Shown here in pieces: positions 542 through 64,000 of a DNA stretch of 64,000 nt. Where the stretch lies: contig NC_090946.1 in assembly GCF_040807025.1 (NCBI RefSeq), forward strand, positions 84,561,141-84,625,140, in the 5' to 3' direction. The stretch's first letter is position 1; each line of letters opens with the position of its first letter. Origin of the DNA: Struthio camelus (taxonomy: Eukaryota > Chordata > Aves > Struthioniformes > Struthionidae). A program made the position numbers and the translations under genes. Below the pieces are notes generated by a model, which saw only the letters and a list, made by a program, of their open reading frames with translations, was not told where the DNA came from and ran no database searches.

Positions 542-596
542 AGTAATTGCCATGGCTGAAATTGAACAGACCAGGAAAATGTAAGCAAGCTGAAGT

Positions 597-3475: not shown

Positions 3476-3479
3476 CATC

Positions 3480-5713: not shown

Positions 5714-5799
5714 CAGTTGCTTTATTCTTTGCACTTGTGTCTGTGGTTCCTGCCGTCGCTTTGCCTGAAGATGATGCCCAGGGGAGGAGGTTACACATT

Positions 5800-7515: not shown

Positions 7516-7520
7516 GCGGC

Positions 7521-8337: not shown

Positions 8338-8339
8338 GT

Positions 8340-9480
8340 CTGTGCCTTCTCAGCCCTGCAGCATTGGCCCAGTGTCTCTGTTCCTCACTGGACATTTGCT
8401 GCTCCCAGGAGAGCGTCCATGGGTCACTGAGGCAGTGGAATTTCCCTGTCTTTCCCTGGTACAGGGCAGGAAGTATTTTCCATCTCTGGTGTGCCCAGAC
8501 AGGGTTCTCCCCAGGGCCTGGGGATGTCCCTATTGTCCCTGGGGAGGGCAGGGAGAGTGTGAGAGGCCGTGGGGGCTCCTGATAGTCATAGCTTTGTTCA
8601 GGCTTGGGGCCAGGTAGGCAGCAACAACTAGGAGGAGTGGTGGCGCTGGGAGGGAATGGTGCAAAGCTATCCTGTTTTGCAGCACAAGGAAACGCAACCA
8701 GCACTGTGGCTGTCCAAGGACCCTAAAAGAGCCGGAGAGACCCTGGAACAGCCGCAGGCACCCCACAGCAGCCCCAGGGACTGTGTCACTGCCTCCCAAG
8801 GTCACTGTGTTCAGCTACCTTTAACTGGGTGGAAAGAGCCTCCAGGAGCCCTGGGCACAGCTGCAGAGGATCCCCAGTTGCCTCTACATATTTTCTTTAC
8901 AAACATGGGATCTCTTGGATGCCTTGCTGCTGCTTCTGTGTTGCTCAGTGCCTAGGTGTGCTATGTTCGCATCCACCCTCTGTGCTGCCCTCTGCTCTGT
9001 TAGAGCTGTTGGCCGGATCAAAAGGGGTGTGCGGCTAAGAGCTAGGCCAGGGGGTCTCAGCTGCCTGGTATAGGACAAATAGGAGGGGGAATGGGCAACA
9101 GGACATAAAAGTACATGTGGATGAGAAACAGGTGCTTTAGAGGACTAAGATGCAGGGGCAACTGACAGGAGTAGAAGTAGCAGGGGAAAAGGGTGATGAG
9201 GAAGATGTGTTGTTAGAGGCAGTACAGCGGAGAAGAGAGGGGGAAAAATGCTCCTATGATGAAATAAAAACTGTCCTGAAGAGATTTGCTTTTTGCCCTT
9301 CAGGTTATGACTCTACATGACTTCCTGAGAACTGTTCTGAGCACATGGTGTTGTAGGTCAAGACTGCCTGGGCAGTGATCCTCAAGTTGTCTGCCAAGAC
9401 TACGCAACAGCTGACAGCTGCCTGCGGAATGAAAGCAAAGGCCTGCTTCTCAGAGGTAAGAGGCAGGGTCCAAGTGGAAG
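8340..9480. other. No gene seen
   Basis: Non-repetitive DNA with scattered short frames. I see no splice-site series, RNA gene or transposon signature. Confidence 0.5.
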
Positions 9481-45861: not shown

Positions 45862-45950
45862 TGCCCCTCCCCTCCAAAGGGTTTCTGGGTAGGGAAGTGG
45901 GTGGGGCCTAGGGTTACATAAAGCGGGGGTCTCTCTTCCCTGAGTTCATT
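45862..45950 (+). promoter_or_regulatory. TATA-like promoter with GC-rich boxes upstream of the micro-exon array
   Basis: 'gcccctcccctcc' at about 45864 and 'gtgggtggggcc' at about 45898 are GC/CACCC-type boxes. CATAAA at 45917-45922 is a TATA variant, which would place a start near 45945-45952 at 'ccctgagttcattctg'. The first ATG-initiated frame of the array (U0) begins 350 bp later at 46298. This is the only compact promoter-like arrangement on the + strand before the eight-unit array. Inference from motif spacing only. Confidence 0.4.
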
Positions 45951-46297
45951 CTGCCTTTGATCTGCTGTGGGAGTGGTAGTTTGTAATGGGCTTAGCAAAT
46001 AACAGCATTTGAGGATGTACAACTATCCTGGAAGACCTATTTGTACGCTTGGAGATGCGAAGGCCATTGAACAATAGAAGAGCAATGAGGCAGCTTGAGC
46101 TGGAGCTGTGATTATGAGAGGGAAGTGTTTGTAGGAGATAGGGTTTTTTCTTGGGTAGCATGTCGGTGTGGGTTGTTTGGGCTGAAAAAGGGCTTCTGAA
46201 TATCCTGTTGTATCTTTTGTTGACGGTCACTGTTGTTTTCTGGTGTTTTTGAGTTTATTGCGGAAGGGATGCAGCTTCTTCACTGGGCTCTTCTGAG

Positions 46298-46898
46298 ATG
46301 ATGAGAGTTGGGGAATTGTTTGTTGCTCTGCAGGACTGCAGAGAAGAAGAGACAGGAGGGGTTCAGGGAAAACATTTTTTCCTAGTTTTGTACCCTAGTT
46401 TTTTTTGCATTGGGTGCAGTTGTGGTGTGGTGAAGCCAAGCGCTGAGACGGAGGCTGAGCAGGTAAGAGGGGGAGCTGTTTGGGTCAGGGCTCTAGTGTG
46501 CCGTGGGGCTGGTGCTGGGCTGCTTCTCAGTGATGTCTTTTGTTGTGCTTTTTCAGGTGCTGTGTGGGCCTTTTCTGGGGTGGCTGAGGGTGTGAGCTGC
46601 AGTAGAAAGGTGTGTCCTTTGTTGTAGGGCTGTTGGGCATTGCCTGGCAGAATAGTAACTGTGTTGCCTTTCCTAGGTGCCGCAGGTGTCTGCCCAGCCA
46701 CAATGCTGGAGTTTGGACAGGATGCAGGTGAGCGGAGGGACCGTGGTGTTTGGGAGGAGGGTGTTTTTGGTGAAGAGGCTGGAGGCATCTGGCGTGCAGG
46801 TGACCGCTTGTGTTGTGTTTTGGCAGGTGGTGAAGGTGAAGGTTTGTGACTGCAGGAAGAGCAGAACAGATGTGCCTGGCATCGAGGCTGGTTCTTGA
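46298..46898 (+). CDS. U0: candidate four-exon gene, 106 codons, founding-type copy of the micro-exon family
   Basis: Proposed exons are 46298-46462, 46557-46589, 46677-46727 and 46827-46898, with GT-AG introns of 94, 87 and 99 bp. Lengths 165, 33, 51 and 72 are all multiples of 3, and the joined frame runs from ATG ATG at 46298 to TGA. Exon 1 ends in GCSCGVVKPSAETEAEQ, clearly the same peptide as exon d of later units (GCSCGVEKLSAEAEAEQ in U5). Exon 2 starts VLCG, like VLWG in exon e. The second donor (GAGG|GTGTGAG) is weaker, because the position used in other units reads ctgcag here. It is also possible that an acceptor lies at 'gggtgcag', making exon 1 shorter. No protein family recognised and no signal peptide. 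The TATA-like promoter lies 380 bp upstream. Confidence 0.38.
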
Positions 46899-46960
46899 GG
46901 ACGGCGCAGCAGTGCCCGAGCTAAGTTGGGAGGGCCAAGCGTGTTGGCTTGTCTTGGGGG

Positions 46961-46978
46961 GTGTGTGTGTGCGTGTGC
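46961..46978 (+). repeat. (GT)n tract, first of a positionally conserved series
   Basis: Short alternating GT/GC runs occur at the same place in successive units: about 46961-46978, 48355-48372, 50365-50392, 52443-52477, 54490-54508, 59372-59402 and 61528-61568, with varying length. Alternating purine-pyrimidine of this kind can adopt Z-DNA. Confidence 0.7.
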
Positions 46979-47327
46979 TGCCAGTCATTACAGTGTAGAG
47001 TCCTCCTGAGGATGAGTGCTGTGTGTGAGGCAGAGGGAGAGGGGGGTGTGCTAGGCCGGGCAGCTCCAGCCTGTGTCTGTGTTGTTGTGTGCTGTGTTCG
47101 GTGTGTGTTGTAGGTGTCCTGTGTTTTGCTCAGGTGTTGATGTTGCTCTTGTCCTTTGTGCTCATGGAGCACGATGCAGACTTTGCAGGGCTAGCACGGT
47201 AGGCGTCTGCAGGTTTTTGGAGTGGCCTGAGCACTCAGTGTTGTGCGAAGGGTTTGCATCTCCTCCTGTGCTGCCCGTGAAAAGGGGCGTTGTGTCGTGC
47301 CAGATTTGCATCGTAGCATCTGTGGCT

Positions 47328-48700
47328 GGCCTCGGGCGGCCGCGCTTCTTCGCCTCGGGGGCTCCCTTTCAGGGTTTTCTTCCCTGTGTGATCATGGCCT
47401 TGCTTCTTTCTGGCTGGCCTCTTGTCCAGTGATGGTATTGGCTTTGCTGGCCCCTTTCTGTCACAGGCCATGGTGTTTGACTCTTTCGTGGGCTTTTCCT
47501 GAGCTTTGAAGCTGCACGGTTGTGGTGTCATAGGGCTTTGTGCCCGGCAGGGTCTTATGTGTGAGAATTGTTCTTTGTGCCTAGGGCTTTCTGCTGTGTT
47601 TGTGTCTGCTGTTTGTGTGTGCATGTTTGTTTGGGTCTGGAGGTGCCTTGCCTGTGGATTATTAGCAATGGCAGCGTGCAGAGTGGAGCGGCACAGGTGA
47701 AGGTGTGGGAGGAAAGGGTGGGTGCCGAAGGACTTTGGTTTTGTGGGCATGCCCTCAAGGTGTGGTGTTTTCTGTGTTTTTGCAGGCATTGCGTGAAGTT
47801 GTGGCGTAGAGAAGCTGAGTGCCGAGACGGAGGCTGAGCAGGTGTGAGGGGCAGCTTGTCATTGAGCGCTTTATTCTGTGACTGGGGGGTGTTGGGCTGG
47901 TTCTTGGTGATGTCTTCTGTTGTGCTTTTTTTCAGGTGCTGTGGGGGGGCCTTTTGCCAGAGGATTTGGGGTGAGTGGAACGGTGAGTTCTTTGTTGTAG
48001 GGCTATTGGGCGTTTCCTGGCGGAAGAGTAACTGTGTTGTGTTGCCTTTCCCAGGTGTTGCGGGTGTCCGCCTGGCCACGATGTTGGAGTTTGGACGGGG
48101 CACAGGTAAGCGGAGGGACCGTGGTGTTTGGGAGGAGGGTGTTTTTGGAGGAAGAGTTTGGTGCTGCGTGGTGTGCGGGTGACAGCTTGTGCTCTGTTTT
48201 GGCAGGTGATGAGGGTGAAGGTTTGTGACTGAAGGCAGATCAGAGAGAGGAGGTGCCTGGCATCGAGGCTGGCTGTTGAGGATGGACAGTGACGCACAGC
48301 TGTGCCCAAGCTAAGTGGAGGGGTCAAGCGTGTTGGCTTGTCCTGGGGGTAGGGGTGTGTGTGTGTGTGTTTGCTGACCATGAGTGTAGTGCTTTAGGAT
48401 GATTGTTTTTGGTGAGGTCGAGGCCGTGGGGTTGTACTTGGGGCTGGGCAGCTCCAGCCAGTGTCTGTGTTGTTGTGTGCTGTGTGTTGTGTGTTGTAGG
48501 TGTCCTGTCTTTTGCTTAGGTCTTGCTGTTGCTCTTGTCCTTTGTGTTCCTGGAGCACAAAGGACGACTTTGCAGGGCTAGCACAGTAGTCATCTGTAGG
48601 CTTTGGGACTGGCCTCAGCGCTCAGTGTTGTGCAAAGAGATTGTATCTGCTGTGCCGCCCGTGAAAAGGGGCATTGTGTCGTTGCAGATTTGCAACATAG
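47328..48700 (+). repeat. Array unit U1 (short, 1.37 kb)
   Basis: Starts with a single remnant of the CpG-rich minisatellite word ('gggcggccgcgcttcttcgcc', 47335 region) followed by the shared 'ggctccctttcagggttttc' joint. It lacks exon-like blocks a, b and c that all later complete units contain, which explains its shorter length. Confidence 0.75.
47786..48209 (+). pseudogene. U1 micro-exon copy, broken
   Basis: Blocks d 47786-47841 (56 bp), e 47936-47970 (35 bp), f 48055-48105 (51 bp) and g from 48206. Acceptors and the donors of e and f (GTGAGT, GTAAGC) are good. Block d carries TGA where other copies read TGC (Cys) in the shared GCSCG motif. Block e is 6 bp shorter than in later units yet stays in frame (VLWGGLLPEDL). 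Block f reads CCGCPPGHDVGVWTGH in the same phase and hits TGA at 48207-48209. A decayed but informative copy that resembles U0 in block f length. Confidence 0.45.
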
Positions 48701-48952
48701 CTTCTTCGCCTCTTCTTCGGCGGCCGCGCTTCTTCGCCTCTTCTTCGGCGGCCGCGCTTCTTCGCCTCTTCTTCGGCGGCCGCGCTTCTTCGCCTCTTCT
48801 TCGGCGGCCGCGCTTCTTCGCCTCTTCTTCGGCGGCCGCGCTTCTTCGCCTCTTCTTCGGCGGCCGCGCTTCTTCGCCTCTTCTTCGGCGGCCGCGCTTC
48901 TTCGCCTCTTCTTCGGCGGCCGCGCTTCTTCGCCTCTTCTTCGGCGGCCGCG
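48701..48952 (+). repeat. 28-bp CpG-rich minisatellite, 9 perfect copies (U2)
   Basis: Unit cttcttcgcc-tcttcttcgg-cggccgcg, repeated nine times without change, plus a partial tenth. Each copy holds GCGGCCGC (NotI) and several CpG. Since 28 is not a multiple of 3 all frames mix, giving RRGEEARPPKK-like low-complexity frames that should not be read as proteins. It ends 402 bp before block a of U2. Confidence 0.95.
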
Positions 48953-49353
48953 CTTCTTTGCCTTTGGGGCTCCCTTTCAGGGTTTTCTTCCCTGTGTGAT
49001 CGTGGCCTTGGGTTTTTCTGGCCAGCCTCTTGTGCATCCACAGTCCTGGCTTTGCCGGCCCCTTTCTGTCACAGCTTGTGGCATTTGAGTCTTTCCTGGG
49101 CTTCTCCTGAGCCTGAAAGGCACAGGGTTGTGGTGTTGTAGGGCTTTGTGCCTGGCAGGGTCTTATGCGTGAGAACTGTTTTTTGTGCCTAGGGCTTTCC
49201 TCTGTGTTTGTGTCTGCTGTTTGTGTGTGTTTGGAGCTGGAGGTGCGTTGCCTGTGGGTTTTAGCGATGGCAGCGTGCAGAGTGGAGTGGTGATGGGGAG
49301 TGGAATGGGGATAGGTCTGCCTTTGGGTGCTGCAGTTTGTGTTGCTTTTGCAG

Positions 49354-50096
49354 ATGCAGAGCAGTGTTCCAGGTACTCAAGGGAGATGGAGGAAGACCGA
49401 GATGTGCACTAAGGAGGTGAGCTTGTGAGTGCTGTTTGCAGGAGGGTGTCTTGGGCAGCGGTTCCCTGAACAATGTTTGTTTTGTGTTTGTAGGTGGGAA
49501 GCTGTGAGGCAAGTGGGTTGCTTGTGCCTAGGAGGAGGCTGGCCAGGTGAGTGTTGGTGTGAGAGATGGAGCAGAGCGTGGAGTGGGGCTGTTGTGTTGT
49601 TGGTGCTGTGTCTGTTGCCCGGTGCTGTTCTGGTTTTGCAGGTGCGTGGCAGAGCTTGGCGTGGCCTCCTGTAGTATGACAGTGGGGAAGGGTAAGTGGC
49701 ACAGGTAAAAGTGTGGGAGCGGTGGGTGGGTGTGGACAGGGTGCGGTTTTGCAAACATCCCCTCAAGGTGTGGTGTTTTCTCTGGTTCTGCAGGTGTAGG
49801 ATGCAGTTGTGGCACGGAGGAGCCGAGTGCTGAGGCTGAGCAGGTAAGAGGGGGCAGCTTGTCGTTGAGAGCTTTATCATTTGGTTGGGTGGTGTCGGGC
49901 TGCCTCTCAGTAATGTCTTTTGTTGTGCTTTTTTCAGGTGCTGTGGGGGGCCTCTTCCGGGATGGCTGAGGATTTGAGGTGAGTGGCACGGTGTGCCTTT
50001 TGTAGTAGGGCTGTTGGGTGCTGCCTGGCAGAAGAGTAACTTTGTGTTGTTTTTCCCAGGTGCTGTGGGTGTCGTAGTGCTGGGCAGGATGTCTGA
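49354..50096 (+). CDS. U2 micro-exon gene candidate, 97 codons, frame intact
   Basis: Exons a 49354-49416, b 49494-49546, c 49642-49691, d 49794-49843, e 49938-49978, and f 50060 to TGA at 50094-50096 (donor at 50119). Introns are 77, 95, 102, 94 and 81 bp, all GT-AG, with donors GTGAGC, GTGAGT, GTAAGT, GTAAGA, GTGAGT and T-rich acceptors. Phases run 0, 2, 1, 0, 2 and the frame stays open: MQSSVPGTQGRWRKTEMC..., VGSCEASGLLVPRRRLA, CVAELGVASCSMTVGK, VGCSCGTEEPSAEAEQ, VLWGASSGMAEDL, CCGCRSAGQDV. ATG follows directly on the acceptor AG of block a. The product would be small, soluble and without a recognised domain. Coding status is inferred; purifying selection is not obvious by eye. Confidence 0.42.
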
Positions 50097-50772
50097 GTTT
50101 GGAAGGGACGTGTTTCAGGTGAGCGGAGGGACCGTGTTGTTTTGGAGGGGGGTGTTTTTTGGGGAAGAGGCTGGAGCTGTGTGGCATGCAGGTGATGGTT
50201 TGTGCTCTGTTTTGGCAGGTGGTGAGGGCGAAGGTTTGTGAGTGAAGGAAGGTCAGAGAGGAGGTGCCTGGCATCGAGGCTGGCTCTTGAGGATGGACGG
50301 TGATGCACGGCAGTGCCCAAGCTAAGTGGAGGGGGCCAAGGGTGTTGGTGTGTCTTGGGTGGTGTGGGTGTGTGGGGGGGTGTGTGCGTGTGCTGCCAGT
50401 CATTGCAGTGTGGAGGCCTCGTGAGGGTGGGTGCTGTGTGTGAGGTAGAGGGAGAGGTGGGTGTGGTAGTCCGGGCTGCTCCAGCCAGTGTCTGTGTTGT
50501 TGTGTGTTGTGTTCGGTGTGTGTTGTAGGTGTCCTGTGTTTTGCTCAGGTCTTGATGTTGCTCTTGTTCTTTGTGCTCATGGAGCATGGCACAGATGTTG
50601 CATCGGTAGCATGGTAGGCATCCGGAGGCTTTTGAGTGGCCCGAGTGCTCAGCATTGTGCCAATGGATCATATCTCCTTCTGTGCTGCCTGTGAGAAGGG
50701 CTGGTGTGTTGCACTGAATTAGCATCATAGCTGTCTGTGGCTGGCCATCTTTGTGGTGATGTTTGAGCGCTT

Positions 50773-51042
50773 GGCGGCCGCTCCTCGCTCGTCTTCTGCG
50801 GCGGCCGCTCCTCGCTCGTCTTCTGCGGCGGCCGCTCCTCGCTCGTCTTCTGCGGCGGCCGCTCCTCGCTCGTCTTCTGCGGCGGCCGCTCCTCGCTCGT
50901 CTTCTGCGGCGGCCGCTCCTCGCTCGTCTTCTGCGGCGGCCGCTCCTCGCTCGTCTTCTGCGGCGGCCGCTCCTCGCTCGTCTTCTGCGGCGGCCGCTCC
51001 TCGCTCGTCTTCTGCGGCGGCCGCTCCTCGCTCGTCTTCTGC
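50773..51042 (+). repeat. 27-bp CpG-dense minisatellite, 10 perfect copies (U3)
   Basis: Unit ggcggccgct-cctcgctcgt-cttctgc, repeated ten times with no mismatch. Each copy has five CpG and one NotI site. As 27 is a multiple of 3, every frame gives a 9-residue repeat (for example PPQKTSEER on the minus strand). It ends 397 bp before the ATG of block a in U3. Confidence 0.97.
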
Positions 51043-51438
51043 GGCATCCTTTCAGGGTTTTCTTGCCTGCATGGTCGCAGCCTTGGGTCCTTTTGGCCAG
51101 CCTCTTGTGCTTCCGTAGTCCTGGCTTTGCTGGCCCCTTGCTGTCAGAGCTTGTGGCATTTGACTCTTTCTTAGGCTTCTCCTGAGGCTGTGAGGTGCAC
51201 GGTTGTGCTGTTGTAGGGCTTTGTGGCCAGCAGGGTCTTATGCATGGGAATCGTTCTTTCTGCCTAGGGCTTTGCTCTGTGTTTGTGTGTGCTGTTTGTG
51301 TGTGTGCATGTTTGTTTGGAGCTGGAGGTGCCTTGCCTGTGGGTTTTAGCGATGGCAGCGTGCAGAGTGGAGTGGTGATGGGGAGTGGAATGGGGATAGG
51401 TCTGCCTTTGGGTGCTGCAGTTTGTGTTGCTTTTGCAC

Positions 51439-52177
51439 ATGCAGAGCAGTGTTCCAGGTACTCGAGGGAGATGGAGGAAGACCGAGACGTGCTCTAAGGA
51501 GGTGAGCTTGTGAGTGTTGTTGGCAAGAGAGTGTTCTGGGTGGCGGTTTGCTGAATGCTTTTTGTTTTGTGTTTGTAGGTGGGAAGCTGTGAGGCAAGTG
51601 GGTTGCTTGTGCCTAGGAGGAGCCTGGCCAGGTGAGTGTTGGTGTGCGAGATGGAGCAGAGCATAGTGTGGGGTTGTTGGTGCTGTGCCTGTTGCTCAGT
51701 GCTGTTCTGGTTTTGCAGGTGCGTGACCGAGGTCAGTGTAGCCTCCTGTAGCCTGACAGTGGGGACAGGTGAGTGGCGCAGGTAAAGTTGTGGGAGCAAG
51801 GGGTGGGTGTGGATGGGCTGTGCTTTTGCAAACATCCCCTCAAGGTGTGGTGTTTTCTCTGGTTCTGCAGGTGTAGGATGCAGTTGTGGCGTGGAGGAGC
51901 CGAGTGCTGAGATGGAGGCAGAGGAGGTGAGAGGGGCAGCTTGTCGTTGAGAGCTTTATTCTGTGGTTGGGTGGTGTCGGGCTGCCTCTCAGTAATGTCT
52001 TTTGTTGTGCTTTTTCAGGTGCTGTGGGGGGCCTTTTCCCGGATGGCTGAGGATTTGAGGTGAGTGGCACGGTGTGCCGTTTGTAGTAGGGCTGTTGGGT
52101 GCTGCCTGGCAGAAGAGTAACTTTGTGTTGTTTTTCCCAGGTGCCGTGGGTGTCCTAGTGCTGAGCAGGATCTCTGA
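51439..52177 (+). CDS. U3 micro-exon gene candidate, 99 codons, frame intact
   Basis: Exons a 51439-51501, b 51579-51631, c 51719-51768, d 51871-51926, e 52019-52059, and f 52141 to TGA at 52175-52177 (donor at 52200). Splice signals match U2. Block d is 56 bp against 50 in U2, an in-frame 6-bp difference. The acceptor before block a is destroyed (ttttgcac|ATG instead of ttttgcag|ATG), so block a can only work here as a first exon containing the start codon. A CpG-dense array ends 397 bp upstream and could supply a promoter. The frame is open from MQSSVPGTRGRW to CRGCPSAEQDL. Family unknown; expression not shown. Confidence 0.42.
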
Positions 52178-52816
52178 GTTTGGAAGGGATGTGTTTCAGG
52201 TGAGTGGAGGGACCGTGTTGTTTTGGAGGGGGGTGTTTTTTGGGGAAGAGGCTGGAGCTGTGTGGCATGCAGGTGATGGTTTGTGCTCTGTTTTGGCAGG
52301 TGGTGAGGGCGAAGGTTTGTGAGTGAAGGAAGATCAGAGAGGAGGTGCCTGGCATCGAGGCTGGCTCTTGAGGATGGACGGTGATGCACGGCAGTGCCCA
52401 AGCTAAGTGGAGGGGGCCAAGGGTGTTGGTGTGTCTTGGGCGGTGTGTGTGGGTGTGTGTGTGTGTGTGTGTGTGTGCTGCCAATCAGTGTCGTGTGGAG
52501 GCCTCCTGAGGGTGGGTGCTGTGTGTGAGGCAGAGGGGGGTGTGGTAGTCTGGGCAGCTCCAGCCAGTGTCTGTGTTGTTGTGTGCTGTGTTCGGTGTGT
52601 GTTGTAGGTGTCCTGTGTTTTGCTCAGGGCTTGATGTTGCTCTTGTCCTGTGTGATGGTGGAGCATGGTGTAAACTTTGCAGGGCTAGGGTGTTAGGCAT
52701 CTGCAGGCTATTGAGTGGCCTGAGCGCTCAGCTTTGCGTCGAGGGACGGTGTCTCCTTGTGTGCCGCCCACCAAAAGGGTTGGTGTGTTGCGCTGAATTT
52801 GCATCGTAGCTGTCTG

Positions 52817-53082
52817 TGGCCGCTCATCTCTGTGGCGATACTGCTCGCCTTCCGCGGCCGTTCATCTTTGTGGCGATGCTCCTTGCCTTCCGCGGCCGCT
52901 CTTCCTCGCCTTCCGCGGCCGTTCATCTTTGTGGCGATGCTCCTTGCCTTCCGCGGCCGCTCTTCCTCGCCTTCCGCGGCCGCTCATCTTTGTGGCGATG
53001 CTCTTCCTCGCCTTCCGTGGCTGCTCATCTTCGCGGTGATGCTCTTCCTCGCCTTCCGCAGCCGCTCTTCCTTGCCTTCATG
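52817..53082 (+). repeat. Composite degenerate minisatellite (U4)
   Basis: Alternating ~41-bp ('ggccgttcatctttgtggcg' + 'atgctccttgccttccgc') and ~23-bp ('ggccgctcttcctcgcctt'...) pieces, imperfect. It is related to the 27- and 28-bp arrays through GCGGCCGCTC and cgccttc words. It retains fewer intact NotI sites and fewer CpG. Confidence 0.85.
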
Positions 53083-53474
53083 GCATGCTTTCAGGGTTTT
53101 CTTCCCTGTGTGGTTGTGGTCTTGGGTCTTTCTGGCCAGCCTCTTGTGCATTGATGGTCCTGGCTTTGCTGGCTGGTTTCTGTCACGGAGCGTGGCGTTT
53201 GACTTTCCTGGGCTTCTCCCGAGCCTCTGAGCCGCACAGTTGTGGCATCGAAGGGTTTGTGGCCTGCAGGGTCCTATGCGTGAGAACTGTTCTTTCTGCC
53301 TAGGGCTTTGTTCTGTGTTTGTGTGTGCTGTGTGTGAGTGTGCATGTTTGTTTGGGGCTGGAGGTGCGTTGCCTGTGGGTTTTACCAATGGCAGTGTGCA
53401 GCATGGAGTGGTGAAGGGGAGTGGAATGGGGATAGGTCTGCCTTTGGGTGCTGCAGTTTGTGTTGCTTTTGCAG

Positions 53475-54361
53475 ATTCAGAGCAGTGTTGTGGGTGCCTG
53501 AGGGAGACTGAGGAAGACTGAGATGTGCACTAAGGAGGTGAGCTTGTGAGTGCTGTTTGCAGGAGGGTGTCTTGGGCAGCGGTTCCCTGAACAATGTTTG
53601 TTTTGTGTTTGTAGGTGGGAAGCCATGAGGCAAGTGGGTTGCTTGTGCCTAGGAGGAGCCTGGCCAGGTGAGTGTTGGTCTGCGAGATGGAGCAGAGCAT
53701 AGTGTGGGGTTGTTGGTGCTGTGCCTGTTGCCCGGTGCTGTTCTGGTTTTGCAGGTGCGTGACTGAGCTCAGTGTAGCCTCCTGTAGCCTGACAGTGGGG
53801 ACAGGTGAGTGGCGCAGGTAAAGTTGTGGGAGCAAGGGGTGGGTGTGGATGGGCTGTGCTTTTGCAAACATCCCCTCAAGCTGTGGTATTGTCTCTGGTT
53901 CTGCAGGTGTAGGATGCAGTTGTGGCGTGGAGGAGCCGAGTGCTGAGATGGAGGCTGAGCAGGTAAGAGGGGCAGCTTGTCGTTGAGAGCTTTATCATTT
54001 GGTTGGGTGGTGTCGGGCTGCCTCTCAGTAATGTCTTTTGTTGTGCTTTTTCAGGTGCTGTGGGGGGCCTCTTCCCGGATGGCTGAGGATTTGAGGTGAG
54101 TGGCACGGTGTGCCTTTTGTAGTAGGGCTGTTGGGTGCTGCCTGGCAGAAGAGTAACTTTGTGTTGTTTTTCCCAGGTGCTTGGGTGTCCTAGTGCTGGG
54201 CAGGATGTCTGAGTTTGGAACGGACGTGTTTCAGGTGAGTGGAGGGACCGTGTTGTTTTGGAGGGGGGTGTTTTTTGGGGAAGAGGCTGGAGCCGTGTGG
54301 CATGCAGGTGATGGCTTGTGCTCTGTTTTGGCAGGTGGTGAGGGCGAAGGTTTGTGAGTGA
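53475..54361 (+). pseudogene. U4 micro-exon copy, stop in exon a and 1-bp deletion in exon f
   Basis: Blocks a 53475-53537, b 53615-53667, c 53755-53804, d 53907-53962, e 54055-54095, f 54177-54234 and g from 54335, all with intact GT-AG sites. Block a starts ATT instead of ATG and has TGA at codon 9. Blocks b-e are open and in phase. Block f is 58 bp rather than 59 ('gtgcttggg' for 'gtgctgtggg'), so it skips the usual TGA, reads through CLGVLVLGRMSEFGTDVFQ and stops in g (VVRAKVCE then TGA at 54359-54361). Unable to start as in U2, but its splice sites are complete. Confidence 0.45.
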
Positions 54362-54837
54362 AGGAAGATCAGAGAGGAGGTGCGTGGCATCGAGGCTGGC
54401 TCTTGAGGATGGACGGTGATGCACAGCAGTGCCCAAGCTAAGTGGAGGGGGCCAAGGGTGTTGGTGTGTCTTGGGTGGTGTGGGGGGGGGGGGTGTGTGT
54501 ATGCGTGTGGTGCCAATCAGTGTAGTGTGGAGGCCTCCTGAGGGTGGGTGCTGTGTGTGAGGCAGAGGTGGGTGTGGTAGTCTGGGCAGCTCCAGCCAGT
54601 GTCTGTGTTGTTGTGTGCTGTGTTCTGTGTGTGTTGTAGGTGTCCTGTGTTTTGCTCAGGTCTTGATGTTGCTCTTGTCCTGTGTGATGGTGGAGCACGG
54701 TGTAAACTTTGCAGGGCTAGGCATCCGCAGGCTATTGAGTGGCCTGAGCGCTCAGCGTTGCGTCGAGGGATGGTGTCTCCTTGTGTGCCGCCCACCAAAA
54801 GGGTCGGTGTGTTGCGCTGAATTAGCATCGTAGCTGT

Positions 54838-55303
54838 CTGTGGCCGCTCATCTCTGTGGCGATAGTGCTCGCCTTCCGCGGCCGTTCGTCTTTGTGGCGA
54901 TGCTCCTCGCCTTCCGCGGCCGCTCTTCCTTGCCTTCTGCGGCTGTTCATCTTTGCGGCTATGCTCTTCCTTGCCTTCTGCGGGCGTTCATCTTTGCGGC
55001 GATGCTCTTCCTCGCCTTCTGTGGCTGCTCTTCCTTGCATTCCGTCGCCGTTCATCTTTGTGGCGATGCTCTTCCTTACCTTCCATGGCTGCTCTTCCTC
55101 GCCTTCTGCGGCCATTCATCTTTGTGGCGATGCTCTTCCTTGCCTTCTGCGGACGCTCTTCCTTGCATTCCGTGGCCGTTCATCTTTGTGGCGATGCTCT
55201 TCCTTGCCTTCCATGGCTGCTCTTCCTCGCCTTCTGCGGCCATTCATCTTTGTGGCGATGCTCTTCCTTGCCTTCCGCGGCTGCTCTTCCTCACCTTCGT
55301 GGC
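54838..55303 (+). repeat. Composite degenerate minisatellite (U5)
   Basis: The longest composite array, about 466 bp of alternating 'ttcatctttgtggcgatgct' and 'gctcttccttgccttc' pieces with many CpG-to-TpG/CpA changes. This decay is consistent with past methylation. Confidence 0.85.
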
Positions 55304-55694
55304 ATGCTTTCAGGGTGGTCTTCCCTGTGTGGTTTCAGCCTTGGATCTTTCTGGCCGGCCTCTTGTGCATTGATGGTCCTGGCTTTGCTGGCTGCTTTCT
55401 GTCACGGACCGTGGTGTTTGACTTTCCTGGGCTTCTCTTGAGCCTCTGAGCTGCACAGTTGTGGCATTGTAGGGCTTTGTGGCCCGCAGGGTCCTATGCG
55501 TGAGAACTGTTCTTTCTGCCTAGGGCTTTGTTCTGTGTTTGTGTGTGCTGCGTGTGAGCGTGCATGTTTGTTTGGGGCTGGAGGTGCGTTGCCTGTGGGT
55601 TTTACCAATGGCAGTGTGCAGCATGGAGTGGTGAAGGGGAGTGGAATGGGGATAGGTCTGCCTTTGGGTGCTGCAGTTTGTGTTGCTTTTGCAG

Positions 55695-56443
55695 ATGCAG
55701 AGCAGTGTTGTGGGTGCCTGAGGGAGATGGAGGAAGACCGAGATGTGCACTAAGGAGGTGAGCTTGTGAGTGTTGTTGGCAAGAGAGTGTTCTGGGTGGT
55801 GGTTTGCTGAATGCTTTTTGTTTTGTGTTTGTAGGTGGGAAGCCGTGAGGCAAGTGGGTTGCTTGTGCCTAGGAGGAGCCCGGCCAGGTGAGTGTTGGTG
55901 TGAGAGATGGAGCAGAGCGTGGAGTGGGGCTGTTGTGTTGTTGGTGCTGTGTCTGTTGCCCGGTGCTGTTCTGGTTTTGTAGGTGTGTGGCAGAGCTTGG
56001 CGTGGCCTCCTGTAGCCTGACAGTGGGGAAGGGTGAGCGGCACAGCTAAAGGTGTGGGAGCAAGGGGTGGGTGTGGACAGGCTGTGGTTTTGTGGCCATC
56101 CCCTCAAGGTGTGGTATTGTCTCTGACTTTGCAGGTGCAGGATGCAGTTGTGGTGTGGAGAAGCTGAGTGCTGAGGCGGAGGCTGAGCAGGTAAGAGGGG
56201 GCAGCTTGTTGTTGAGAGCTTTATTCTGTGGTTGGGTGGTGTCGGGCTGCCTCTCAGTAATGTCTTTTGTTGTGTTTTTTTCAGGTGCTGTGGGGGGTGT
56301 CTTCCCAGATGGCTGAGGATTTGAGGTGAGTGGCACGGTGTGCCCTTTGTAGTAGGGCTGTTGGGTGCTGCCTGGCAGAAGAGTAACTTTGTGTTGTTTT
56401 TCCCAGGTGCTGTGGGTGTCCTAGTGCTGGGCAGGATGTCTGA
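55695..56443 (+). pseudogene. U5 micro-exon copy, stop at codon 9 of exon a
   Basis: Blocks a 55695-55757, b 55835-55887, c 55983-56032, d 56135-56190, e 56285-56325, and f 56407 with TGA at 56441-56443. Block a keeps ATG after a good acceptor but reads GCC TGA at codons 8-9 where U2, U3 and U6 read ACT CAA or ACT CGA. Blocks b-f are open and in phase. The donor of f is CAA|GTGAGC and the acceptor of c is TAG. Translation could only start downstream, so it is probably non-coding or used as internal exons. Confidence 0.45.
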
Positions 56444-57107
56444 GTTTGGAAGGGACGTGTTTCAAGTGAGCGGAGGGACCGTGTTGTTTCGGCGGAGGGT
56501 GTTTTTTGGGGAAGAGGCTGGAGCTGTGTGGCATGCAGGTGATGGTTTGTGCTCTGTTTTGGCAGGTGGTGAGGGCGAAGGTTTGTGAGTGAAGGAAGGT
56601 CAGAGAGGAGGTGCCTGGCATCGAGGCTGGCTCTTGAGGATGGATGGTGACGCACGGCAGTGCCCAAGCTAAGTGGAGGGGGCCAAGGGTGTTGGTGTGT
56701 CTTGGGTGGTGTGGGTGTGTGCCTGGGCTGCCAGTCATTACAGTGTGGAGGCCTCGTGAGGGTGGGTGCTGTGTGTGAGGTAGAGGGAGAGGTGGGTGTG
56801 GTAGTCCGGGCAGCTCCAGCCTGTGTCTGTGTTGTTGTGTGCTGTGTTCTGTGTGTGTTGTAGGTGTCCTGTGTTTTGCTCAGGTGTTGATGTTGGTCTT
56901 GTCCTGTGTGCTCATGGAGCATGGCACAGATGTTGCATCGGTAGCATGGTAGGCATCCGGAGGCTTTTGAGTGGCCCGAGTGCTCAGCATTGTGCCAATG
57001 GATCATATCTCCTTCTGTGCTGCCTGTGAGAAGGGCTGGTGTGTTGCACTGAATTAGCATCATAGCTGTCTGTGGCTGGCCATCTTTGTGGTGATGTTTG
57101 AGTGCTT

Positions 57108-57971
57108 GTCGGCCGCTCCTCGCTCGTCTTCTGCGGCGGCCGCTCCTCGCTCGTCTTCTGCGGCGGCCGCTCCTCGCTCGTCTTCTGCGGCGGCCGCTCC
57201 TCGCTCGTCTTCTGCGGCGGCCGCTCCTCGCTCGTCTTCTGCGGCGGCCGCTCCTCGCTCGTCTTCTGCGGCGGCCGCTCCTCGCTCGTCTTCTGCGGCG
57301 GCCGCTCCTCGCTCGTCTTCTGCGGCGGCCGCTCCTCGCTCGTCTTCTGCGGCGGCCGCTCCTCGCTCGTCTTCTGCGGCGGCCGCTCCTCGCTCGTCTT
57401 CTGCGGCGGCCGCTCCTCGCTCGTCTTCTGCGGCGGCCGCTCCTCGCTCGTCTTCTGCGGCGGCCGCTCCTCGCTCGTCTTCTGCGGCGGCCGCTCCTCG
57501 CTCGTCTTCTGCGGCGGCCGCTCCTCGCTCGTCTTCTGCGGCGGCCGCTCCTCGCTCGTCTTCTGCGGCGGCCGCTCCTCGCTCGTCTTCTGCGGCGGCC
57601 GCTCCTCGCTCGTCTTCTGCGGCGGCCGCTCCTCGCTCGTCTTCTGCGGCGGCCGCTCCTCGCTCGTCTTCTGCGGCGGCCGCTCCTCGCTCGTCTTCTG
57701 CGGCGGCCGCTCCTCGCTCGTCTTCTGCGGCGGCCGCTCCTCGCTCGTCTTCTGCGGCGGCCGCTCCTCGCTCGTCTTCTGCGGCGGCCGCTCCTCGCTC
57801 GTCTTCTGCGGCGGCCGCTCCTCGCTCGTCTTCTGCGGCGGCCGCTCCTCGCTCGTCTTCTGCGGCGGCCGCTCCTCGCTCGTCTTCTGCGGCGGCCGCT
57901 CCTCGCTCGTCTTCTGCGGCGGCCGCTCCTCGCTCGTCTTCTGCGGCGGCCGCTCCTCGCTCGTCTTCTGC
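57108..57971 (+). repeat. 27-bp CpG-dense minisatellite, 32 copies (U6)
   Basis: 864 bp of the same 27-bp unit as in U3. The copies are identical except that the first has gtcggccgc, so 31 NotI sites fall within 0.86 kb. About five CpG per unit. Long frames of up to about 330 codons on both strands are purely repeat-derived. It ends 397 bp before the ATG of block a in U6, exactly the spacing of U3. Confidence 0.97.
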
Positions 57972-58367
57972 GGCATCCTTTCAGGGTTTTCTTGCCTGCA
58001 TGGTCGCAGTCTTGGGTCCTTTTGGCCAGCCTCTTGTGCTTCCGTAGTCCTGGCTTTGCTGGTCCCTTGCTGTCACAGCTTGTGGCATTTGATTCTTTCT
58101 TAGGCTTCTCCTGAGCCTCTGAGGTGCACGGTTGTGCTGTTGTAGGGCTTTGTGGCCAGCAGGGTCTTATGCATGGGAATCGTTCTTTCTGCCTAGGGCT
58201 TTCCTCTGTGTTTGGGTGTGCTGTTTGTGTGTGTGCATGTTTGTTTGGAGCTGGAGGTGCCTTGCTTGTGGGTTTTAGCGATGGCAGCGTGCAGAGTGGA
58301 GTGGTGATGGGGAGTGGAATGGGGATAGGTCTGCCTTTGGGTGCTGCAGTTTGTGTTGCTTTTGCAC

Positions 58368-59104
58368 ATGCAGAGCAGTGTTGTGGGTACTCAAGGGAGA
58401 CGGAGGAAGACTGAGATGTGCACTAAGGAGGTGAGCTTGTGAGTGCTGTTTGCAGGAGGGTGTCTTGGGCAAGTTCCCTGAACAATGTTTGTTTTGTGTT
58501 TGTAGGTGGGAAGCCATGAGGCAAGTGGGTTGCCTGTGCCTAGGAGGAGCCTGGCCAGGTGAGTGTTGGTCTGCGAGATGGAGCAGAGCATAGTGTGGGG
58601 TTGTTGGTGCTGTGTCTGTTGCCCGGTGCTGTTCTGGTTTTGCAGGTGCGTGGCCGAGGTCAGTGTAGCCTCCTGTAGCCTGACAGTGGGGACAGGTGAG
58701 TGGCGCAGGTAAAGTTGTGGGAGCAAGGGGTGGGTGTGGATGGGCTGTGCTTTTGCAAACATCCCCTCAAGCTGTGGTATTGTCTCTGGTTCTGCAGGTG
58801 TAGGATGCAGTTGTGGCGTGGAGGAGCCGAGTGCTGAGATGGAGGCTGAGCAGGTAAGAGGGGCAGCTTGTCGTTGAGAGCTTTATTCTGTGGTTGGGTG
58901 GTGTCGGGCTGCCTCTCAGTAATGTCTTTTGTTGTGCTTTTTCAGGTGCTGTGGGGGGCTTCTTCCCGGATGGCTGAGGATTTGAGGTGAGTGGCACGGT
59001 GTGCCTTTTGTAGTAGGGCTGTTGGGTGCTGCCTGGCAGAAGAGTAACTTTGTGTTGTTTTTCCCAGGTGCTGTGGGTGTCCTAGTGCTGGGCAGGATGT
59101 CTGA
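58368..59104 (+). CDS. U6 micro-exon gene candidate, 99 codons, frame intact
   Basis: Exons a 58368-58430, b 58506-58558, c 58646-58695, d 58798-58853, e 58946-58986, and f 59068 to TGA at 59102-59104 (donor at 59127). Introns are 75, 87, 102, 92 and 81 bp. As in U3 the acceptor before block a reads gcac, so this must be a first exon if used. The frame is open throughout: MQSSVVGTQGRRRKTEMC..., VGSHEASGLPVPRRSLA, CVAEVSVASCSLTVGT, then d, e and CCGCPSAGQDV. The 32-copy CpG array upstream makes it the best candidate in the window for an autonomously promoted unit. Coding status is inferred. Confidence 0.43.
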
Positions 59105-59744
59105 GTTTGGAACGGACGTGTTTCAGGTGAGCGGAGGGACCGTGTTGTTTTGGAGGGGGGTGTTTTTTGGGGAAGAGGCTGGAGCTGTGTGGCATGCAGG
59201 TGATGGTTTGTGCTCTGTTTTGGCAGGTGGTGAGGGCGAAGGTTTGTGAGTGAAGGAAGGTCAGAGAGGAGGTGCGTGGCATCGAGGCTGGCTCTTGAGG
59301 ATGGACGGTGATGCACGGCAGTGCCCAAGCTAAGTGGAGGGGGTCAAGGGTGTTGGTGTGTCTTGGGCGGTGTGTGGGTGTGTGTGTGTGTGTATGCGTG
59401 TGCTGCCAATCAGTGTCGTGTGGAGGCCTCGTGAGGGTGGGTGCTGTGTGTGAGGTAGAGGGAGAGGTGGGTGTGGTAGTCCGGGCAGCTCCAGCCAGTG
59501 TCTGTGTTGTTGTGTGCTGTGTGGTGTGTGTTGTAGGTGTCCTGTGTTTTGCAGAGGTCTTGATGTTGCCGTTGTCCTGTGTGATGGTGGAGCACGGTGT
59601 AAACTTTGCAGGGCTAGGGTGTTAGGCATCCGCAGGCTATTGAGTGGCCCGAGCGGTCAGCGTTGCGTCGAGGGATGGTGTCTCCTTGTGTGCCGCCCAC
59701 CAAAAGGGTCGGTGTGTTGCGCTGAATTTGCATCGTAGCTGTCT

Positions 59745-60145
59745 GTGGCCGCTCATCTCTGTGGCGATAGTGCTCGCCTTCCGCGGCTGTTCATCTTTGT
59801 GGCGATGCTCCTTGCCTTCTGCGGCCGCTCTTCCTTGCCTTCTGTGGCCGTTCATCTTTGCGGCGATGCTCTTCCTTGCCTTCTGTGGCCGTTCATCTTT
59901 GCGGCAATGCTCTTCCTCGCCTTCCGCGGCTGCTCTTCCTTGTATTCCGTGGCCGTTCATCTTTGTGGCGATGGTCTTCCTTGCCTTCCATGGCTCCTCT
60001 TCCTTGCATTCCATGGCTGTTCATCTTTGCGGCGATGGTCTTCCTTGCCTTCCATGGCTGCTCTTCCTTGCCTTCTGCAGCCATTCATCTTTGTGGCAAT
60101 GCTCTTCCTTGCCTTCCGCGGCTGCTCTTCCTCGCCTTCATGGCA
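59745..60145 (+). repeat. Composite degenerate minisatellite (U7)
   Basis: About 400 bp of alternating 'tgttcatctttgtggcgatg' and 'gctcttccttgccttctg' pieces with eroded CpG, resembling the U5 array. Confidence 0.85.
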
Positions 60146-60535
60146 TGCTTTCAGGGTTTTTTTCCCTGTGTGGTCGTGGTCTTGGGTCTTTCTGGCCAGC
60201 CTCTTGTGCATTGATGGTCCTGGCTTTGCTGGCTGGTTTCTGTCACGGAGCGTGGCGTTTGACTTTCCTGGGCTTCTCCCGAGCCTCTGAGCCGCACAGT
60301 TGTGGCATTGTAGGGCTTTGTGGCCCACAGGGTCCTATGCGTGAGAACTGTTCTTTCTGCCTAGGGCTTTGTTCTGTGTTTGTGTGTGCTGTGTGTGAGC
60401 GTGCCTGTTTGTTTGGGGCTGGAGGTGCGTTGCCTGTGGGTTTTACCAATGGCAGTGTGCAGCATGGAGTGGTGAAGGGGAGTGGAATGGGGATAGGTCT
60501 GCCTTTGGGTGCTGCAGTTTGTGTTGCTTTTGCAG

Positions 60536-61279
60536 ATGCAGAGCAGTGTTGTGGGTGCCTGAGGGAGATGGAGGAAGACCGAGATGTGCACTAAGGAGGT
60601 GAGCTTGTGAGTGCTGTTTGCAGGAGGGTGTCTTGGGCAGCGGTTCCCTGAACAATGTTTGTTTTGTGTTTGTAGGTGGGAAGCCATGAGGCAAGTGGGT
60701 TGCTTGTGCCTAGGAGGAGCCCGGCCAGGTGAGTGTTGGTGTGAGAGATGGAGCAGAGCGTGGAGCGGGGCTGTTGTGTTGTTGGTGCTGTGCCTGTTGC
60801 CCGGTGCTGTTCTGGTTTTGCAGGTGCGTGGCAGAGCTTGGCGTGGCCTCCTGTAGTATGACAGTGGGGAAGGGTAAGTGGCACAGGTAAAAGTGTGGGA
60901 GCGGTGGGTGGGTGTGGACAGGGTGCGGTTTTGCAAACATCCCCTCAAGGTGTGGTGTTTTCTCTGGTTCTGCAGGTGTAGGATGCAGTTGTGGCACGGA
61001 GGAGCCGAGTGCTGAGGCTGAGCAGGTAAGAGGGGGCAGCTTGTCGTTGAGAGCTTTATCATTTGGTTGGGTGGTGTCGGGCTGCCTCTCAGTAATGTCT
61101 TTTGTTGTGCTTTTTGTCAGGTGCTGTGGGGGGCTTCTTCCCGGATGGCTGAGGATTTGAGGTGAGTGGCACAGTGTGCCTTTTGTAGTAGGGCTGTTGG
61201 GTGCTGCCTGGCAGAAGAGTGACTTTGAGTTGTTTTTCCCAGGTGCTGTGGGTGTCCTAGTGCTGGGCAGGATGTCTGA
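60536..61279 (+). pseudogene. U7 micro-exon copy, stop at codon 9 of exon a
   Basis: Blocks a 60536-60598, b 60676-60728, c 60824-60873, d 60976-61025 (50 bp as in U2), e 61121-61161, and f 61243 with TGA at 61277-61279. Splice sites are intact throughout. Exon a has TGA at codon 9; b-f are open and in phase, with CVAELGVASCSMTVGK identical to U2 in block c. The g block lacks the 'gtttgtgagtgaaggaa' stretch found in the other late units (after 'gagggcgaag', about 61415). Confidence 0.45.
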
Positions 61280-61913
61280 GTTTGGAACGGACGTGTTTCA
61301 GGTGAGCGGAGGGACCGTGTTGTTTTGGAGGGGGGTGTTTTTTGGGGAAGAGGCTGGAGCTGTGTGGCATGCAGGTGATGGCTTGTGTTCTGTTTTGGCA
61401 GGTGGTGAGGGCGAAGGAAGGTCAGAGAGGAGGTGCCTGGCATCGAGGCTGGCTCTTGAGGATGGACGGTGACGCACGGCAGTGCCCAAGCTAAGTGGAG
61501 GGGGCCAAGGGTGTTGGTGTGTCTTGGGCAGTGTGTGTGGGTGGGTGGGTGGGTGTGTGTGTGCGTGTGCTGCCAGTCATTGCAGTGTGGAGGCCTCGTG
61601 AGGGTGGGTGCTGTGTGTGAGGTAGAGGGAGAGGTGGGTGTGGTAGTCCGGGCAGCTCCAGCCAGTGTCTGTGTTGTTGTGTGCTGTGTTCTGTGTGTGT
61701 TGTAGGTGTCCTGTGTTTTGCAGAGGTCTTGATGTTGCTCTTGTCCTGTGTGATGGTGGAGCACGGTGTAAACTTTGCAGGGCTAGGGTGTTAGGCATCT
61801 GCAGGCTATTGAGTGGCCTGAGCGCTCAGCGTTGCGTCGAGGGACGGTGTCTCCTTGTGTGCCGCCCACCAAAAGGGTCGGTGTGTTGCGCTGAATTTGC
61901 ATCGTAGCTGTCT

Positions 61914-62290
61914 GTGGCCGCTCATCTCTGTGGCGATAGTGCTCGCCTTCCGTGGCTGTTCATCTTTGTGGCGATGCTCCTTGCCTTCCGCGGCTGCTCT
62001 TCCTTGTATTCCGTGGCCGTTCATCTTTGTGGCGATGGTCTTCCTTGCCTTCCATGGCCGCTCTTCCTTGCCTTCTGCAGCCATTCATCTTTGCGGCGAT
62101 GGTCTTCCTCGTCTTCCATGGCTGCTCTTCCTTGCCTTCGTGGTATCCTTTCAGGGTGGTCTTCCCTGTGTGGTCGTGGTCTTGGGTCTTTCTGGCCAGC
62201 CTCTTGTGCATTGATGGTCCTGGCTTTGCCAGCTGCTTGCCATTATGGGCTTCTCCCGTGCCTGTGAGCTGCAGGGATGTGTTGTTGTAG
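61914..62290 (+). repeat. Array unit U8, truncated
   Basis: Composite minisatellite (61914-62150) and the 'tttcagggtggtcttccctg' joint, after which similarity to the unit fades at about 62,290. No micro-exons a-f follow, so the array ends here. Confidence 0.75.
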
Positions 62291-63092
62291 GGCTTTCTGG
62301 CTGAGAGTGTTGTTTGTGCTGTGATTGTTGTTGTGTCTGTGTGTTTGTGTCTTTGTGGGTGGAGCTGGAGCTGCCTTGCCTGTGGGTGTAGTTGAGGGTG
62401 TGGGCTGTGCTAAGTACTGTATCCATGGGACCTTGTTAGGGTTTCTGTGAGAGTGAAACTGTAAGGCAAAGCGTAGTTTTATTTTTTGTATATTTATTTA
62501 TTGATGGATAGGAATGGTGTTTTTGGTGGGAGCCTGTTCACGGCAGTGCAGCGTTCCCTTTTAAATGGGTGGAAATTGGCTGTGTTAGTAGAGGTGAGGA
62601 AGGGCTGCGGTGGGAGGGTGTGGGTAATTGTGTGGTTGTCGGTTGGGTTTGGTATTGAGTGTATCCAAGTCTGTATGCATGTGTTTGGTTTGTTTTCTGA
62701 TTGTACTTAGCATTTAGAGGTTTTGTTTTAATGGAAACCCCCAGGTGGTTGAATTTTTTTTTTTCCCCCTGACTTTTTTTTCCTGTGGTGTTGTTCACTG
62801 CCTGAGGTGATTTGATCATTGCAAATGTTGCTGTGCAGGTTGGGCCGGGGTTTTTTTTTTTAGGCAGGGTGGTATGTGGAAACGCTTGGTAATGCTGTTT
62901 CTGTGAGTGGTCCTAAAAACTGGTGCTGTTTGCCATGTAGTGCAGGGAGGCAGAGTGCCTGTGGTGGGACTGAGTGGGCAGTTGTGTGGATGTTGGGTGG
63001 TTTTTGGTATGGAATGTGTCTAACCTTGTATGCACCTTTTGTTCTTACAGGCTGTAGTTAGCAAGTAAAATTTTTTCCATTTTTATTTTTTT

Positions 63093-63153
63093 AAAAAAAA
63101 AACCCAGCCGGGGGATTTTTTTTTTTTGCTTCCCCTGGCTGGGTTTTTTTTTT
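63093..63153. repeat. Hairpin-forming inverted repeat (copy 1)
   Basis: An A-run plus 'cccagccgggg' is mirrored by 'cccctggctggg' plus a T-run around a T-rich loop, a stem of about 20 bp with a single mismatch. Conserved in the next 372-bp copy. It could form a cruciform, or a stable RNA hairpin if transcribed. Confidence 0.8.
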
Positions 63154-63464
63154 CCCCGGTCCCGGTCACTCTGCGAGGCGACGATCATCGCCAATGTTGG
63201 TGCGGAGCTGTGGCTCGGGGCCGGGGTTTTCTAGGCAGGGTGGTATTTGGAAGTGCTCGGTAATGTTGTTACCGAGAGTTGTCCCAAAAAACTGCAGGTG
63301 TTTCCTTGTAAGTGCAGGGAGGCAGAGTGCCTGTGGTGGGACTGAGTGGGCAGTTGTGTGGATGTTGGGTGGTTTTTGGTATGGAATGTGTCTAACCTTG
63401 TATGCACCTTTTGTTCTTACAGGCTGTAGTTAGCAAGTAAAATTTTTTCCATTTTTATTTTTTT

Positions 63465-63524
63465 AAAAAAAAACCCCAGCCGGGGGATTTTTTTTTTTGC
63501 TTCCCCTGGCTGGGTTTTTTTTTT
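63465..63524. repeat. Hairpin-forming inverted repeat (copy 2)
   Basis: Same stem as the copy at 63093, with one base shifted from the A-run to the C-run (aaaccccagcc). Retention of the stem in both young copies partly reflects recent duplication. Confidence 0.8.
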
Positions 63525-63866
63525 CCCCGGTCCCGGTCACTCTGCGAGGCGACGATCATCGCCAATGTTGGTGCGGAGCTGTGGCTCGGGGCCGGGGTTT
63601 TCTAGGCAGGGTGGTATTTGGAAGCGCTCGGTAATGTTGTTACCGAGAGTTGTCCCAAAAAACTGCAGGTGTTTCCTTGTAAGTGCAGGGAGGCAGAGTG
63701 TATGCTGCTGGATGGGTGTAGCATTGGTGTGATTGTAGAGAAGGTTGGTGACGAGTGTGTGCAGCTGCTGTGGATGGTGGGCTGGTATGTTATGTTGTCG
63801 GGGTGGTTTTGTTTAGTGTTTTGTAACTGACATGTCTTTCCCCCCTCCCTTTTTTTTTTTTGGCAG

Positions 63867-64000
63867 GTGCAGAAGCAGCTGTCATGTGGTGTGGAGATGA
63901 GCATGCTTATGTAGTGAGGAATGAAGGTGGAGGTGTTTCTGATGCTGTTGGAATAAGGAGATTGTTGTGGGTTTTTTTTTCTTTTTGGAGCAATAAAGAT
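63867..64000 (+). other. Candidate terminal exon with poly(A) signal
   Basis: A long pyrimidine tract (ccccctccct, T run) and TGGCAG end at 63866. The following block begins GTG like nearly all array exons, reads VQKQLSCGVEMSMLM, then TAG. AATAAA lies at 63992-63997, just before the window ends, so the cleavage site is not visible. It would serve as the 3' end for + strand transcription through 46-64 kb. I saw no other AATAAA between 46.9 and 63.9 kb. Confidence 0.4.
63992..63997 (+). promoter_or_regulatory. AATAAA poly(A) signal
   Basis: Canonical hexamer in 'tttggagcaataaagat', 126 bp after the acceptor of the candidate terminal exon. The downstream GU/U-rich element lies beyond the window. 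Confidence 0.5.

Follow-up and report, generated by a model that had tools for sequence, protein, structure and literature searches.

A telomere-directed gene built from repeated exon cassettes is predicted at many chromosome ends of the ostrich

Results

The subject of this study is a window of 64,000 nucleotides from the ostrich, Struthio camelus (assembly GCF_040807025.1, contig NC_090946.1, here C5, C5:84561141-84625140), whose right-hand part carries a tandem array of short, exon-like blocks, all on the plus strand. The contig ends 8,382 bases beyond the window, with TTAGGG repeats. An earlier note on this DNA had described an array of micro-exon genes, coding or recently coding, in which six consecutive units (U3 to U8) hold the same blocks a to f. 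When re-measured in the window sequence, the coordinates, lengths and phases of these blocks were borne out, with d of 50 or 56 bp and f of 58 or 59 bp. In U3 the exons are a 49354-49416 (63 bp), b 49494-49546 (53), c 49642-49691 (50), d 49794-49843 (50), e 49938-49978 (41) and f 50060-50118 (59). U4 (51439-52199) consists of a 51439-51501, b 51579-51631, c 51719-51768, d 51871-51926, e 52019-52059 and f 52141-52199, and U5 (53475-54234) of a 53475-53537, b 53615-53667, c 53755-53804, d 53907-53962, e 54055-54095 and f 54177-54234, the latter reduced to 58 nt by a 1-bp deletion. They are followed by U6 (55695-56465), with a 55695-55757, b 55835-55887, c 55983-56032, d 56135-56190, e 56285-56325 and f 56407-56465; by U7 (58368-59126), with a 58368-58430, b 58506-58558, c 58646-58695, d 58798-58853, e 58946-58986 and f 59068-59126; and by U8 (60536-61301), with a 60536-60598, b 60676-60728, c 60824-60873, d 60976-61025, e 61121-61161 and f 61243-61301. 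An acceptor and a donor had been claimed for every block. The claim holds for 34 of the 36 acceptors and fails for the remaining two, because block a has AC in place of AG in U4 and U7. As claimed, blocks b to e are open in a single frame in all six units, the remaining two frames having 3-7 stops each; block a contains an in-frame stop in U5, U6 and U8.

Splice sites were scored with vertebrate weights, the cut-offs being at least 5.5 bits for donors and at least 4.5 for acceptors. The U3 core contains 6 donors, 7 acceptors and 6 pairs of an acceptor and a donor spaced by 35-70 nt; shuffled cores average 0.96, 0.60 and 0.02, and none of 1000 dinucleotide shuffles reached any of the three counts. 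For the complete U3 unit, the acceptor count was reached by 5 of 1000 shuffles and the donor and pair counts by none. This splice pattern beyond shuffle expectation supports the description of spliced-looking exons in tandem. Between 49308 and 62349, every donor above the cut-off (34/34) is a block end; of the 36 block ends, two fall below it (4.5 and 3.6). Between 12.0 and 46.3 kb, the plus strand has no donor scoring 4.5 or more.

The six units are preceded by two older, partly deleted cassettes without blocks a to c, U1 and U2 (46463-49307, plus strand). U1 retains e and f (f 46677-46727), and U2 retains d (47786-47841), e (47936-47970 or 47982) and f (48055-48105); exon e of U1 has lost its donor and exon d of U2 has a weak one. 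The three longest BLAST pieces between this block and U3 are 76-81% identical, and the divergence of U1/U2 from U3-U8 is about the same in exons as in introns. Each of the units U3-U8 also includes, downstream of f, a block g, whose first part spans 50219-50350 in U3 and recurs at 52300, 54335, 56566, 59227 and 61402; it is headed by an acceptor, lacks a strong donor, and is possibly an alternative last exon. The cassettes are separated by minisatellites that vary in type and copy number. In the U6-to-U7 intron, a CpG-rich 27-bp repeat occupies 57110-57974 with 32 copies at 100% match (CpG observed/expected 1.26-1.38) and looks newly expanded; the other units have 27-, 28- or 41/64-bp types.

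The array has a single candidate start. A TATA-like element, TTACATAAAG, lies at 45914-45923, ahead of a predicted first exon, E1, of 515 nt (45948-46462) that would run from an initiator-like motif, TTCATTC (A at 45948), to a donor CAG/GTAAGA. The homologous region was compared at other contig ends (named by contig, with R or L for the right or left end), six of which were read whole (C5R, the window's own end, C14L, C19L, C2L, C22L and C7L) and one, C4L, in its 3' part. At the site corresponding to the TATA-like element the five other ends have TTATATAAAG, 33 nt upstream of the initiator-like motif (5/6 ends), and the distance from this motif to the donor is 514-515 nt at 6/6 ends. The promoter and E1 region of C5R is 97.2-99.0% identical to those of the five other ends. 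A GT-rich strand bias switches sign near the predicted start; it could be caused by replication or by an origin, and was not used as support.

The array also has a single candidate 3' end. The predicted last exon, T, begins at 63867 with an acceptor of 12.1, the top score within 45.7-64 kb, and continues beyond the window end at 64000. The AATAAA/ATTAAA hexamer at 63992 within T is the sole one after 43 kb on the plus strand, and C14L has two AATAAA with T- and GT-rich sequence downstream of them, which is what suits a poly(A) site. Ahead of T, a 371-bp repeat of 2.3 copies (62856-63700) is also present at C14L, C19L, C2L, C4L, C22L, C7L and C1L. A donor GAG/GTGAGG at 62594 is retained at 7/7 ends with no exon attached to it, and a further exon near it is possible.

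Each of the six fully read ends has one promoter and E1 region, a U1/U2 block, 3-6 cassettes (six at C5R, four at C14L and C7L, three at C19L, C2L and C22L), a 371-bp-repeat stretch and one AATAAA-bearing T; the partly read C4L has one T. Among 164 donors of at least 5.5 bits in the gene spans of the seven ends, 160 are homologous to window donors.

Searching proteins with the 97-residue translation of U3 returned at E<=1 a single match, the 88-residue P0001 of Struthio camelus (uncharacterized protein isoform X9, a prediction of NCBI); no other species appeared at this threshold in this one search. C7L encodes P0001 exactly, with MSEFGRDVFQ in exon f of its cassette 2 and the rest in exons b to f of cassette 3. 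The modelled junction joins f of one cassette to b of the following one, with g and a left out, and therefore argues that the units are exon cassettes of one gene. Composite queries of 283 and 663 residues matched no protein at E<=1 among the best ~8000 candidates each and so brought up no additional isoform, the 97-residue product matched no Pfam family at E<=1, and an exact scan of viral contigs for the exon-b pattern gave 0 hits.

It thus seems likely, from the arrangement of these signals, that each chromosome end concerned has one gene, of which the units are the repeated exon cassettes. In the earlier note they were an array of genes, which would mean separate genes side by side, each started from a promoter of its own and closed by block g as the last exon. 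Block g, with its acceptor and without a strong donor in the units, and the CpG-rich minisatellites ahead of block a would suit such a layout. The 3-6 cassettes nevertheless share a single TATA promoter region and a single T at 6/6 ends, and the NCBI model splices one unit to the next, so that we consider separate genes very unlikely. In the window the units are also without AATAAA or ATTAAA; this says little, because 152 of 200 shuffles were likewise free of any.

Coding tests were performed on 23 cassettes from the seven ends, the third cassette of C22L falling outside the set for want of a usable exon-b match. Substitutions gave no support to the proposal that the array is coding or recently coding: the ratio of nonsynonymous to synonymous rates (dN/dS), computed on the 19 cassettes with d of 56 bp (the four with a shorter d being excluded), was 0.709 versus a permuted mean of 0.719, and 169 of 300 permutations were as low or lower. 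Variable sites fall at the three codon positions in numbers of 16, 14 and 14, and the same tests on the six units of the window gave no codon-level signal. These results bear on the view that the array is a multicopy subtelomeric protein gene, in which each f-b-c-d-e-f pass would encode a Cys-containing peptide of 86-88 residues, with the ATG of exon f overlapping the TGA of the previous pass (ATGTCTGA). Such a gene agrees with P0001, with a b-e frame open in 23/23 cassettes (other frames 0/23) and with length changes of 6 or 12 bp in d, all in frame. Against it stand the substitution pattern, the 111 of 300 permutations in which all rows stay stop-free, the presence of an intact ATGTCTGA in just 17 of 23 cassettes, the 8-nt difference in exon f of U1/U2, and the absence of a Pfam family or a match in another species in the searches above. 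Apart from d, exon lengths are constant save for 1 bp in one f, and block a has an in-frame stop in 7/23 cassettes. We regard a protein gene as unlikely; the product is probably a non-coding RNA, with a real chance of a short protein. Nor is this a micro-exon gene (MEG) in the sense of MEGs, whose coding sequence comes mainly from short exons of a length divisible by three, since most of the lengths found here (63, 53, 50, 56 (50, 44), 41 and 59 (58)) are not so divisible.

A genome-wide search with the U3 core yielded 217 candidates, of which 40 were scored, with identities of 94-100%. None of the 40 is farther than 22.5 kb from the nearest contig end; all are directed at that end, as judged from their splice sites, and they represent at least 27 ends. 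Among the matched contigs, C183 (32.5 kb) and C229 (38.4 kb) may be alternative copies, and C11 stops within the array. Telomere repeats were read at six ends carrying the block. The distance from the last AATAAA of T to the start of TTAGGG is 3249 nt at C14L, 1443 at C19L, 1680 at C4L and 1364 at C7L, and at C1L T is likewise followed by telomere repeats. The stretches read at C2L and C22L, which stop short of the outermost bases, contained no telomere. C14L has, between T and the telomere, a long run of TTTCCCTCTCTTTAC-type repeats and then mixed TTAGGG/TCAGGG repeats.

The closest relative of a cassette sits on a different end in 17 of 23 cases, mean identity is the same within ends as between ends (0.942), and some cassettes pair by position (C5R_1/C19L_1 98.6%, C5R_2/C19L_2 98.3%). 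Blocks appear, from these comparisons, to have been exchanged between chromosome ends. Such exchange would also fit a non-functional subtelomeric repeat, in which splice signals would be intact only through recent homogenisation and any transcripts would be noise. Diversity agrees with this, being equal in exons (0.069) and intron cores (0.076), with 67/316 and 66/310 variable columns respectively (P = 1.0), as does a constraint on splice dinucleotides that reaches just P = 0.06. Two features oppose it, namely a promoter, first-exon, splice and poly(A) anatomy matched at six ends, and splice dinucleotides intact in 274 of 276 cases over the 23 cassettes (GT 138/138, AG 136/138). We find a repeat devoid of function doubtful.

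Short exons in tandem units also recall an intronic small nucleolar RNA (snoRNA) host array of the Prader-Willi SNORD116 type, as described in the part of PMC4742849 used here. The window gave no Rfam match at gathering scores, and U3 none at E<=2. The introns of the six units contain no C/D-box candidate with a terminal stem, H/ACA not having been separately searched. The snoRNA host was rejected on the negative Rfam and C/D-box scans, and we give it next to no weight.

Elsewhere in the window, a retroviral fragment lies at 1098-1616 (plus strand; Pfam RT_RNaseH_2, E 6.8e-13), and an exon-like open stretch at 2178-2364 (plus strand) has neither a Pfam nor a PDB sequence match at E<=1. A 61-bp unit is repeated 10.8 times in tandem within a GC-rich stretch at 7519-8176 and is absent from the stretches examined at six other ends; it has words that resemble ETS, YY1 and ZNF143 sites. 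From 10500 to 45700 extends a degenerate pyrimidine-rich satellite of 81/245/489 bp, with 182 acceptors of at least 4.5 and 0 donors of at least 5.5 on the plus strand, which is also found upstream of the promoter at C14L, C19L, C2L, C22L and C7L. The array had no BLAST match at E<=1e-3 to this satellite or to positions 1-10500.

Discussion

Taken together, these data make it probable that the ostrich carries, at each of many chromosome ends, one spliced, telomere-directed gene built of exon cassettes, probably non-coding and with a role like that of the subtelomeric transcripts called subTERRA in yeast; its transcription and function are here deduced from DNA sequence. Transcription would start at the single TATA promoter, presumably by RNA polymerase II (Pol II), and run toward the telomere. 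Splicing would link exon f of each cassette to the cassette after it, a junction backed by the NCBI prediction, and the RNA would likely end at the single AATAAA-bearing T, shortly before the TTAGGG repeats. The product would then be a spliced and polyadenylated subtelomeric RNA whose telomere-ward transcription may help to determine how the end behaves in chromatin or recombination, and the copies would have spread through exchange between chromosome ends.

Several observations weigh against this reading. The window's own TATA box is altered (TTACATAAAG), four of the 164 strong donors match no homologous window donor, and block g and the minisatellites could mark ends and starts at the level of the unit. 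The lack of AATAAA inside units is weak evidence. Splice dinucleotides vary in 1/24 columns versus 66/310 in intron cores, a marginal difference. The open b-e frame and the in-frame changes of d favour coding, and P0001, itself a prediction, was called coding by NCBI. Finally, C5L, C6L, C8L and C9L had no match in their last 10 kb and, because these are four of the five further ends checked, the gene is claimed for many ends and not for every one.

A bolder proposal, which we put forward tentatively and hold to be less probable than the gene itself, is that of a vertebrate "spliced subTERRA". Each end would have its own Pol II gene, whose RNA would lengthen with the number of cassettes and act on telomeres in cis, kept uniform through exchange, so that cassette number would be a heritable, end-specific dial. 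The RNA would at the same time carry a train of 86-88-codon frames, each ATG overlapping the preceding TGA (ATGTCTGA).

If the predicted gene is real, its clean promoter, its dozens of small exons and its poly(A) site, present at no fewer than 27 contig ends, would make it a defined origin of transcription toward the telomere that can be put to the test in a vertebrate. It would also raise the questions of whether it sets subtelomere chromatin, the levels of telomeric repeat-containing RNA (TERRA) or the exchange between ends. Genome assemblies are often least complete in the subtelomeres, and annotation can enter an array of this kind under the ordinary name "uncharacterized protein". A literature search, with most subscription journals outside its coverage, found no paper on such a gene among those it listed.

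Among known systems, D4Z4/DUX4 is a subtelomeric tandem array, oriented toward the telomere, with a single distal poly(A) exon and a double-homeobox protein. The ostrich array shares the distal poly(A) exon and the orientation. It differs in that its 97-residue product has no homeobox or other Pfam family at E<=1, in that its model splices between units, and in its presence at 27 or more ends. Chicken MHM was rejected as a counterpart, the ostrich array lying at so many contig ends and the BamHI site of the MHM unit being absent from 46-64 kb. MHM is a single Z-linked locus near DMRT1 that produces a female-specific non-coding RNA, according to the part of PMC2375040 consulted.

Two other RNAs resemble the predicted gene in their exons. 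In Prader-Willi IPW-A, tandem repeated exons are spliced out of one long transcript whose introns contain snoRNAs, as the relevant part of PMC4742849 describes; the repeated-exon build is alike, and the Rfam and C/D-box scans found no snoRNAs in the ostrich introns. In FIRRE, local repeats make up many exons of one RNA, 7/13 in human, and the pertinent part of PMC4820808 describes a single locus with one exonic repeat, unlike the six-exon cassette found at many ostrich chromosome ends.

Human TERRA includes telomere repeats in its sequence, and the start of one class lies within CpG-rich 61-29-37 repeats (PMC6600276, in part). Like the predicted ostrich gene, with its 40/40 end-directed matches, it has a subtelomeric start, runs telomere-ward and uses promoters common to many ends, in the account given in that part of the article. 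The ostrich gene differs by its TATA promoter and by poly(A) signals ahead of the telomere. No TERRA-type CpG-island 61-29-37 promoter was found around 45.0-46.5 kb, where CpG observed/expected is at most 0.31, and telomere repeats in the ostrich RNA are disfavoured because AATAAA precedes TTAGGG by 1.4-3.2 kb at four ends.

The closest parallel is with yeast subTERRA, as far as the part of PMC5932542 used here describes it. These are Pol II units in subtelomeres, some of them telomere-ward, partly polyadenylated and not covering the telomere repeats, and their accumulation accompanies changes in telomere clustering and silencing. They run in both directions, are unstable and, in that part of the article, are described with no mention of splicing, whereas the ostrich gene has one direction, a spliced-looking structure and tandem cassettes. 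The likeness would lie in a predicted anatomy that is directed at the telomere and ends before the telomere repeats.

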